Below, one piece after another: positions 322 to 2,021 of a stretch of DNA of 7,157 nucleotides. The stretch is from Synergistota bacterium. Its GTDB lineage: Bacteria; Synergistota; JAGHAJ01. Position numbers and translations under genes: made by a program. The notes below the pieces were generated by a model that was not told the origin of the DNA, did not search any database, and worked only from the letters and a program-made list of their open reading frames with translations. The DNA lies in assembly GCA_021161545.1 (NCBI GenBank), contig JAGHAJ010000050.1, positions 1 through 7,157 on the forward strand. Direction: 5' to 3'. Numbering within the stretch: position 1 is the first letter of the stretch; each line of letters begins with the position of its first letter.

Positions 322-1722
322 TTAGAAGCTCACAAACACCCTTGCTCTGATTGCATCCTCATCCTTCGTATCGTCGTCGTAGTCAGCATTGTCGTATGCC
401 AATTCGAAGTATGTAGATGGCGTGTACTGGTACTTGATTGTAAATGTGTAGCCTTTTCCACCCAAATCGTTATCTGCATCATCACTGTAGTAACGCTCTG
501 TTGTGGATATTTTGTCGTTCCACTGCTGAGATGCCATAACGAACAGCACTTTGTGGTCAACACTAAGAGTATTATCCACACCAAGTGTTTCTGCTGGGAA
601 GCTGCTTACAAGATAGGCAAATGGTGTGTTGATTAAGAATGCTCCTTTGTCTGCCTTTAAGTACTCTACATTTAACGATGTAAACTTCAGGACCTTCTGG
701 TCAATAGCAAGTCCCGCCTTCCACACATTCGGATTCTCGTCATTGGTGTCTTCTCTACCATATATACCGTAAAGCTTTACGCCATCTGTGAATGTAACTG
801 TGAAGTCGCCAAAGAGAACGCTTGGCTCATTGAAAGAAGGTGCATCTGTCTTTGCTGCCCACTTCAAGTAGGATACTGCCAGCCTGAAGTTGTTGCTGAT
901 ATTGAAGTTCAACCTTGCACCATACAGGAACTGGTCGTATAGATAATCTGTTCCACCAACTGTAACTGTTCCATCATTGGTATACTGCCCATAAAGAAGC
1001 GTGATATCACCCACTCCAAACTTTTTCGTGAAGGAGAACATTGGAAGTCCAATGTCTGTCCATATAGCATCATTATCTGCATACAGCCCTGCAGCTCCTT
1101 CCCAGTCGAAGCATGCCTTACCTGCCGTCATCGTAAATCCCCACGGCAGAGATACCACAGTATACGCCCTGCTCGTTGATAGTGTTCCACTATCCCCATC
1201 AAACCTGAAGTGAACCGATACTTTGTCATCTACCTGCTTTGTAACATATATCCTTGCCCTGCTAACATTGATATTCTCCTCATCAGTTGTTGCTGCGCCA
1301 TCTCCACTCTTGAACAATGCATCGAACCTAAACTCGCCAGAGAACTGGAACCCATTTAAGTTCTTTTCCACTACGCCCAGTCTCTTGTCGATTGCATCCA
1401 CCTTTACGCCGAGTGCCTTCAGCTCATCCTGGAACTCCACGACGAGTTTCTGAATTACGGCGAGGTCCTCTTTAGATGCATAGTGATTCTCAACGTATGC
1501 CAGAGCCCTTGCTGTAGCAACTGCGAACTCGTACCTTGTCATCGGCTTTGTTCCCTGGAATGTACCATCTGGATAGCCCTGCAGTACTCCCTTTGCAGCC
1601 AGCTGTGCCACTGCATCGTACGCCCAGTGATTCATCGGAACATCAACAAACGGATTGGCGAGCACCGGCACCGCAAAAGCGAATACCACTACTACAGCCA
1701 TCAAAACTGCTAATTTCCTCAT
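322..1722 (-). CDS. SLH-domain outer-membrane porin (OmpM/SomA-like)
   Basis: This 466-residue protein is probably a major outer-membrane channel anchored to the cell wall. A signal peptide covers residues 1-22, with likely cleavage at VLA|NP. One S-layer homology domain follows at about 24-76, recognisable from FVDVP, HWAYDAV, GYPDGTF and the classic TRYEFA. Residues about 82-122 form a helical, coiled-coil-like stalk. From FSGEFRFDALF (about 127) to the end are amphipathic beta-strands, finishing with RVFVSF, an outer-membrane assembly signal. This order (signal, one SLH, stalk, barrel) matches porins of Synergistota and Negativicutes, where the SLH domain binds modified peptidoglycan or its polymers. 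ATG is the start, with AGGGGGT six bases upstream. Transcription probably starts at 1993-2021, giving a long leader, and ends at the hairpin at 278-310. Porin function is inferred from architecture; the substrate is unknown. Confidence 0.9.
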   Translation of the reverse strand: MRKLAVLMAVVVVFAFAVPVLANPFVDVPMNHWAYDAVAQLAAKGVLQGYPDGTFQGTKPMTRYEFAVATARALAYVENHYASKEDLAVIQKLVVEFQDELKALGVKVDAIDKRLGVVEKNLNGFQFSGEFRFDALFKSGDGAATTDEENINVSRARIYVTKQVDDKVSVHFRFDGDSGTLSTSRAYTVVSLPWGFTMTAGKACFDWEGAAGLYADNDAIWTDIGLPMFSFTKKFGVGDITLLYGQYTNDGTVTVGGTDYLYDQFLYGARLNFNISNNFRLAVSYLKWAAKTDAPSFNEPSVLFGDFTVTFTDGVKLYGIYGREDTNDENPNVWKAGLAIDQKVLKFTSLNVEYLKADKGAFLINTPFAYLVSSFPAETLGVDNTLSVDHKVLFVMASQQWNDKISTTERYYSDDADNDLGGKGYTFTIKYQYTPSTYFELAYDNADYDDDTKDEDAIRARVFVSF

Positions 1723-1986
1723 TATTCTACCCCCTTGGATTTTGGTTTTGCCACCTCTTCATCCCTTGGGAGCTCAAACACCAGAGTTTCCTCGTTTCCT
1801 CTGATTTAAAACCCCTCTTGAGATATCAGGTGGCTTTATGCAATAGCCTCCTTCTCCCCCTGCCCTGTTGCGTTCACCAAGGAGCATCGCACCTCCTTTC
1901 CTTGCATCAGGCTTCTTGATAGTGGAGGATTCTAAGAGACTATCTGCCTGTTTCGGGTAGTTTTGTCAAGGACCAACCACTCTACA
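1723..1986 (-). promoter_or_regulatory. Candidate structured 5' leader RNA of the SLH porin
   Basis: About 264 nt separate the predicted transcription start from the porin ATG. The RNA (minus strand) is purine-rich and can form several perfect or near-perfect helices. Helix A pairs AAGGAG 1898-1893 with CUCCUU 1884-1879. Helix B pairs 1852-1845 with 1835-1828 (8 positions, one mismatch). Its loop holds UUGCAU (1843-1838), complementary to AUGCAA at 1907-1902, which would make a pseudoknot. Helix D pairs CAGAG 1803-1799 with CUCUG 1786-1782. Helix E pairs GCCACCU 1834-1828 with AGGUGGC 1756-1750 and competes with helix B. CUGAU 1829-1825 with AUCAG 1805-1801 competes with helix D. It matches no riboswitch class that I can recall. 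Structures were found by eye without energies. Confidence 0.55.
1774..1887 (-). CDS. Possible 37-residue upstream ORF in the porin leader
   Basis: The ATG (1887-1885) follows AAGGAGGTG with a 4-nt gap after GGAGG, the strongest ribosome binding site in the window. The frame runs 37 codons to TGA. The peptide begins MLLGERNRAGGEGGYCIKPP and ends in a basic stretch VLNQRKRGNSGV; it is rich in Gly and Arg, with no membrane segment and no known domain. It sits 51 nt upstream of the porin ATG in a different frame. Two readings are possible: a real small protein or regulatory upstream ORF whose translation remodels the leader, or a chance frame through a structured RNA. Overlap of its start region with helix A and of its body with the other helices makes the second reading quite possible. 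Confidence 0.35.
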   Translation of the reverse strand: MLLGERNRAGGEGGYCIKPPDISRGVLNQRKRGNSGV

Positions 1987-1992
1987 CTTACA

Positions 1993-2021
1993 AGTATAAA
2001 GGCCTTTTTTACTGCTGTCAA
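1993..2021 (-). promoter_or_regulatory. Sigma-70-type promoter for the SLH porin
   Basis: On the minus strand a perfect -35 TTGACA (2021-2016) is followed after 17 nt by TATACT (1998-1993), one base off consensus. Start of transcription is expected near 1986. The promoter lies only about 20 nt after the stop of the upstream barrel gene. A second TTGACA at 1969-1964, again preceded by CC, has no good -10 partner. Confidence 0.8.

Follow-up and report, generated by a model that had tools for sequence, protein, structure and literature searches.

The 264-nt leader ahead of the SLH-domain porin gene in the window, the 7,157-nt stretch of Synergistota DNA analyzed here, is almost certainly a conserved structured RNA, and sequence comparison indicates that one of its C-rich segments, the anti-Shine-Dalgarno (anti-SD) segment aSD2, co-evolves with the Shine-Dalgarno (SD) sequence of the porin gene. 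We infer that pairing of aSD2 with the SD masks the SD and that the leader switches between two states. The reading that we favor, with a probability of roughly 0.7, is that the leader is a cis-acting control of the translation of a major outer-membrane protein via SD masking. In many early-branching diderm bacteria, porins of the SlpA/OmpM type anchor the outer membrane to the cell wall and rank among the most abundant proteins (PMC9388160). Formerly an orphan riboswitch candidate of a single phylum, the element now appears to serve major outer-membrane proteins of four phyla as a leader RNA. The mechanism proposed here, in which an anti-SD segment masks the start site and the leader contains its own SD copy, is concrete and testable; it narrows the search for the signal and names the exact bases to mutate. 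The S-layer gene slpA of Thermus thermophilus likewise carries a long regulatory 5′ leader on an envelope gene of the SLH/SlpA type, although we claim no homology. The features of the window are collected in Table 1.

Table 1. Features of the porin gene and its leader RNA, by position in the window
Feature	Positions	Strand	Remarks
Predicted σ70-like promoter, TTGACA-17-TATACT	1993..2021	-	11/12 consensus matches
SLH porin leader RNA, member of the "SLH motif"-type family	1723..1986	-	covariance models
UUGACA	1964..1969	-	recurs close to the 5′ end in many relatives
aSD1, CUACCC	1955..1960	-	paired with the SD's GGGUAG in the minimum-energy fold
Helix P2, 5′ strand	1934..1947	-	9 pairs (1942-1934) plus extension; by hand and minimum-energy fold
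Helix P3, 5′ strand, UCCUCC	1924..1929	-	
Helix P4, 5′ strand, CCUG	1908..1911	-	
Helix P5, 5′ strand, UGC	1904..1906	-	GGC in most relatives
SD look-alike in the P5 loop, AAAGGAGGUG	1890..1899	-	near-invariant GAGGUG
aSD2, C-rich, core loop, CUCCUUGG	1877..1884	-	co-evolution with SD
Helix P5, 3′ strand, GCA	1869..1871	-	GCC in most relatives
Helix P4, 3′ strand, CAGG	1864..1867	-	
Helix P3, 3′ strand, GGGGGA	1855..1860	-	
Helix P2, 3′ strand	1840..1852	-	by hand and minimum-energy fold
Arm P8, 5′ strand, GCCACCU	1828..1834	-	pairing probability about 1
Hairpin P9, AUCAGAG/CUCUGGU	1780..1805	-	conserved loop GAAACGAGGAAA at 1798-1787
aSD3, GCUCCC, second C-rich segment, after P9	1768..1773	-	weaker co-evolution with SD
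Arm P8, 3′ strand, AGGUGGC	1750..1756	-	
Porin SD region, CCAAGGGGGUAG	1727..1738	-	
SLH-domain porin gene, 466 aa, SlpA/OmpM type	322..1722	-	PF00395, E 4e-13

The initial annotation had proposed the promoter and, from it, a leader of about 264 nt; both agree with the sequence. Strong promoter sites are not enriched upstream of the leaders of Synergistota relatives. The fold of the leader is more stable than those of 200/200 dinucleotide shuffles (z -3.0). Its minus strand contains no intrinsic terminator-like site, a result consistent with control at translation rather than at transcription. The UUGACA near the 5′ end recurs in the rumen clade (L087-L123) as the same UUGACAAUUU immediately before the SD, and has the look of a promoter in neither place.

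A BLASTN search of 60 relatives with the leader as query returned numerous short, exact matches to 1905-1887 and 1800-1785 of the window, many of them ∼75-200 nt upstream of SLH-porin orthologues. From the relatives, 97 distinct leaders were extracted. The 5′ core of six relatives, with the window left out, was used to build a covariance model (R1), which gave 78 matches in 99 loci, one of them in the window (1931-1847, 23.4 bits, E 0.0055); at E 1e-3, it found the element in 82 of 185 Synergistota genomes. An SLH porin lies downstream in all 72 of the R1 matches with readable downstream sequence, the remainder running into contig edges. A second model trained on the R1 matches, from Synergistota only (R2), brought the number of genomes with the element to 113 of 185; it scores the window at 41 bits, a value that is not independent because the window sits in the training set. 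The leader is the sole supported match in its own genome. Two copies precede two tandem SLH porins in genome G019, and the Synergistales isolate DFE_SYN carries ten copies (L066-L070, L081, L082), several in tandem arrays, each before its own SLH porin. Two weak copies in another Synergistota genome, G122 (L214, 546-635 and 1204-1283), are followed by genes for small, charged, secreted proteins (MKKVVGFCVLSAM..., MKKVIGFCVLSAM...) and not by SLH porins. The SLH-porin leaders L009, L050, L053, L072 and L080, from Pyramidobacter and relatives, are devoid of the core and keep P9 with its conserved loop.

In the relatives, the supported core helices are P2 (GCUUC/GAAG[N]C), P3 (UCCGC/GCGGA), P4 (CCC/GGG) and P5 (GGC/GCC), and the minimum-energy fold of the window contains the same helices (P2, 1942-1934/1852-1844; P3, 1929-1924/1860-1855; P4, 1911-1908/1867-1864; P5, 1906-1904/1871-1869). 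Over 71 distinct sequences, 97.0% of cells are paired, versus 35-49% in slid registers, and double changes occur in 14 of the 16 pairs (in 122 cells, a level equaled by 0/500 shuffles). Over 94 distinct sequences the corresponding values are 96.1%, 30-49% and 220 doubly changed cells. These alignments were fitted to the structure and are biased toward it; nevertheless, for helices deduced from sequence, the effect size and the slid controls leave little doubt. Conservation, synteny and covariation thus strongly support the proposal, made in the initial annotation, of a structured cis element before a major envelope protein.

The 3′ arm of the leader is likewise conserved. When its strands were exchanged among relatives, the native combinations folded at -33.1 kcal/mol and the swapped ones at -24.5 kcal/mol (z -12), the segment tested also taking in a few P3 bases. 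The pairing in this arm of GCCACCU (1834-1828) with AGGUGGC (1756-1750), now P8, had been proposed from the sequence and has a probability of 0.97-1.00; the arm terminates in P9, which is the hairpin proposed at 1803-1799/1786-1782 (CAGAG/CUCUG). The remainder of the earlier structural model fared less well. A hairpin of 1852-1845 with 1835-1828, postulated to exclude P8, can be written as a sequence match (7 pairs, one mismatch). Its pairing probability is 0.000 and its fold lies 15.7 kcal/mol above the minimum, and it is unsupported, 1852-1844 being taken up by the 3′ strand of the conserved P2. Similarly, AUGCAA (1907-1902) is indeed complementary to the UUGCAU (1843-1838) of the postulated hairpin loop, but a 6-nt complement within 264 nt is weak evidence alone, and the strand overlaps P5 (UGC, 1906-1904). 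Since these elements share bases with P2 and P5, neither the hairpin, nor the pseudoknot, nor a mutually exclusive switch between the hairpin and P8 is supported.

The P9 loop, GAAACNNGGNNA, is strongly conserved across Synergistota and recurs in the phylum of genomes G260 and G432; in the rumen clade it reads AAGGUAA or AAGGCAA. This conservation, together with the retention of P9 only in some paralogous leaders, would suit control by a conserved RNA-binding protein acting on P9, possibly as envelope feedback. We consider such control unlikely, as a candidate protein is lacking and the rumen-clade loops are without an obligate GGA, which argues against CsrA; regulation by CsrA was rejected on the latter ground, the GGA not being kept in all members.

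In Rfam 15 (4227 families), the leader scores below the gathering threshold throughout, in agreement with the initial statement that it fits no catalogued riboswitch class. The description of the element as new holds for Rfam 15, in which the SLH motif also has no entry, but a matching riboswitch candidate, the "SLH motif", had been published, with Thermovirga lienii as its source (Stav et al. 2019, BMC Microbiol 19:66, PMC6429828). That account counts 80 examples from Synergistaceae, Clostridia, Negativicutes and metagenomes, ∼60% of them upstream of SLH-domain genes, and suggests c-di-GMP as the ligand (PMC6429828). The two share a structured leader in Synergistaceae that stands mostly before SLH-domain genes, and we regard their identity as highly probable, equating them by host and gene context. 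New relative to the published account are the broader distribution, the evidence from base pairs, the 3′ arm and its hairpin P9, and the co-evolution of anti-SD and SD. The genome G019 described above is, we presume, that of Thermovirga lienii itself.

In the window, aSD2 (CUCCUUGG) and the SD (CCAAGGGG) can form 8 bp at -13.3 kcal/mol. Among 33 diverged representatives, the aSD2:SD duplex was more stable with native than with swapped partners (z -5.5, 0/20,000). Adding seven leaders of three other phyla gave z -7.35; restriction to 19 representatives below 0.65 similarity gave z -3.8, and the signal weakened to z -2.6 in 14 very distant ones. The reversed-segment control for aSD2 gave z 0.1. 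A second segment, aSD3, also co-evolves with the SD (z -3.95). Concerted changes of anti-SD and SD include UUUCCCCC/GGGGGAAA (L126), ACAACCCC/GGGGUUGU (L153), AAAUCCCCC/GGGGGAUUU (L249) and CCUUAGGUU/AACCUAAGG (Dictyoglomus); in the rumen clade (NAAUCCCC), the anti-SD:SD pairing comprises about 4 bp. As the SD is near-invariant in most clades, the co-evolution signal comes from a minority of lineages. Two other SD partners were rejected: aSD1 (5′ CUACCC, ACCUUGG), paired in the minimum-energy fold of the window, shows no co-evolution (z -0.2), and a local SD hairpin (AACC-AAGGG-GGUU) shows none between clades (z -0.4). The leader therefore has what is expected of an SD-masking regulator, a segment that co-evolves with the SD and keeps its complementarity. 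The same finding, with that of aSD3 and the near-invariant look-alike described below, is left unexplained by a passive structure that stabilizes the mRNA of an abundant protein, as surface-layer 5′ leaders may. Despite the stable fold and the great abundance of this protein class in relatives (PMC9388160), we hold a purely passive role to be very improbable.

Co-evolution of this kind is typical of translational riboswitches, and the leader resembles these and other SD-masking leaders in that an anti-SD segment alternatively pairs with the ribosome-binding site. It differs from them in the SD look-alike beside the anti-SD in a loop and in being without a known ligand or sensor domain. A small-molecule riboswitch, in which the P2-P5 core and conserved loop would be an aptamer for an envelope-related metabolite whose binding sets the masking by aSD2, is a possibility that we take seriously without favoring it. 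The compact, highly conserved core with its near-invariant loop bases points in this direction, as does the published classification of the SLH motif as a riboswitch candidate (Stav et al. 2019, PMC6429828). The leader nevertheless matches no Rfam riboswitch class, and its association is with a single gene, for an outer-membrane structural protein, rather than with metabolic or transport genes.

The SD look-alike, AAAGGAGGUG, adjoins aSD2 and is complementary to the 3′ end of 16S rRNA. Each base of its GAGGUG is kept in 32-33 of the 33 representatives, and the motif is also kept in three other phyla. An ATG follows at usable spacing in 5/33 representatives, indicating that the look-alike is not an ordinary start site. 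In the window, AAAGGAGGUGCGAUG begins a 37-codon upstream ORF with a good SD, as a leader-peptide attenuator would need, but we give that model almost no credence and rejected it on the rarity of the start codon. In the minimum-energy fold of the window, aSD2 pairs with the look-alike over 6 bp (AAGGAG/CUCCUU), and this pairing and aSD2:SD exclude each other. Pairing of the look-alike with aSD2 or aSD3 shows no covariation signal (z 0.3 for aSD2); the look-alike hardly varies, which places its pairing with aSD2 beyond the reach of covariation.

These features suggest how SD masking might operate. In one state, aSD2, together with the second segment after P9, would pair with the SD and block ribosome entry. 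In the other, aSD2 would be held inside the folded leader, in the window by the 6-bp hairpin with the look-alike, and translation would proceed. The change of state might be triggered by a ligand or a protein, or else by the ribosome. The last of these would make the look-alike a real 16S-binding site in a ribosome-sensing or standby leader: the 30S subunit would load there, open the adjoining aSD2 and shift to the porin SD, or, alternatively, free ribosomes would set the level of porin synthesis. We consider this reading tentative and rather unlikely, although the conservation of GAGGUG and the scarcity of usable start codons after it favor a ribosome-related role, the 16S tail with which it would naturally pair is also invariant, and in the window the look-alike is calculated to bind the anti-SD tail more strongly (-15.3) than the true SD does (-12.6). 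Against it, some members retain the look-alike only in part (GGAGAUG, GAGGCG), and the motif could equally be a tertiary or ligand-binding element. More doubtful still is the broader proposal that in at least four phyla the leader is a ribosome-responsive valve and not a metabolite switch, AAAGGAGGUG capturing the 30S subunit through the universally conserved 16S tail. Were it true, the look-alike would decide the anti-SD masking of the porin start and couple envelope synthesis to ribosome supply.

Outside Synergistota, R2 scored one genome, G262 (28.8 bits, E 3e-5). Six such leaders occur among the seven genomes of its phylum, before a homologous barrel-like secreted protein without an SLH domain; we take this phylum to be Dictyoglomus, with genomes that we believe to be Dictyoglomus thermophilum and D. 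turgidum, all phylum names other than Synergistota being presumptive. In these Dictyoglomus-like loci (L213, L221, L223, L228, L232 and L233) the same leader architecture stands before the SLH-less protein (MKKLVWLLVLALLVVPAFAA...), and the anti-SD CCUUUAGG matches CCUAAGG of the SD. A model that included the G262-phylum leaders (R3) gave weak outside matches, with E 0.001-0.04, a strength at which many are chance. Six fell in a four-genome phylum, presumably Thermodesulfobium (one genome being, we believe, Thermodesulfobium narugense), with an SLH porin directly downstream in five (L248, L249, L250, L252, L253); the gene downstream of the sixth, L251, is not among the five read. A 43-genome phylum supplied two more (G260, G432); each has a P9-like hairpin and an SLH porin downstream. 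The published account lists Clostridia and Negativicutes; our searches add Dictyoglomus, Thermodesulfobium and a fourth phylum. Among ∼204 outside-phylum genomes, about one per family, no supported match was assignable to Clostridia or Negativicutes. The weak outside-phylum R3 matches L238, L240-L243 and L245, lying in genes or without a recognizable envelope gene downstream, were set aside as chance, as were, on the same grounds, L246-L247 (Synergistota) and L254. In the 1.3-Mb outside-phylum genome G298 (L237, 1543-1466, minus strand), GGC-AAGAAAGGAGGUG-...-GCC lies ∼150 nt ahead of the gene for a secreted protein that may be a barrel (MKHKLLTAVCALALVLSF...); this may, with some uncertainty, be a further phylum with the element.

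Two other features of the window were evident. After the porin gene, at 310-282, lies a strong 13-bp hairpin with T-tracts, terminator-like on both strands and probably a bidirectional terminator. At 3549-2773 is a gene for a coiled-coil protein, with a weak, below-cutoff match to DUF3782, that contains near-identical repeats of LSEAQKRTEERLESL.
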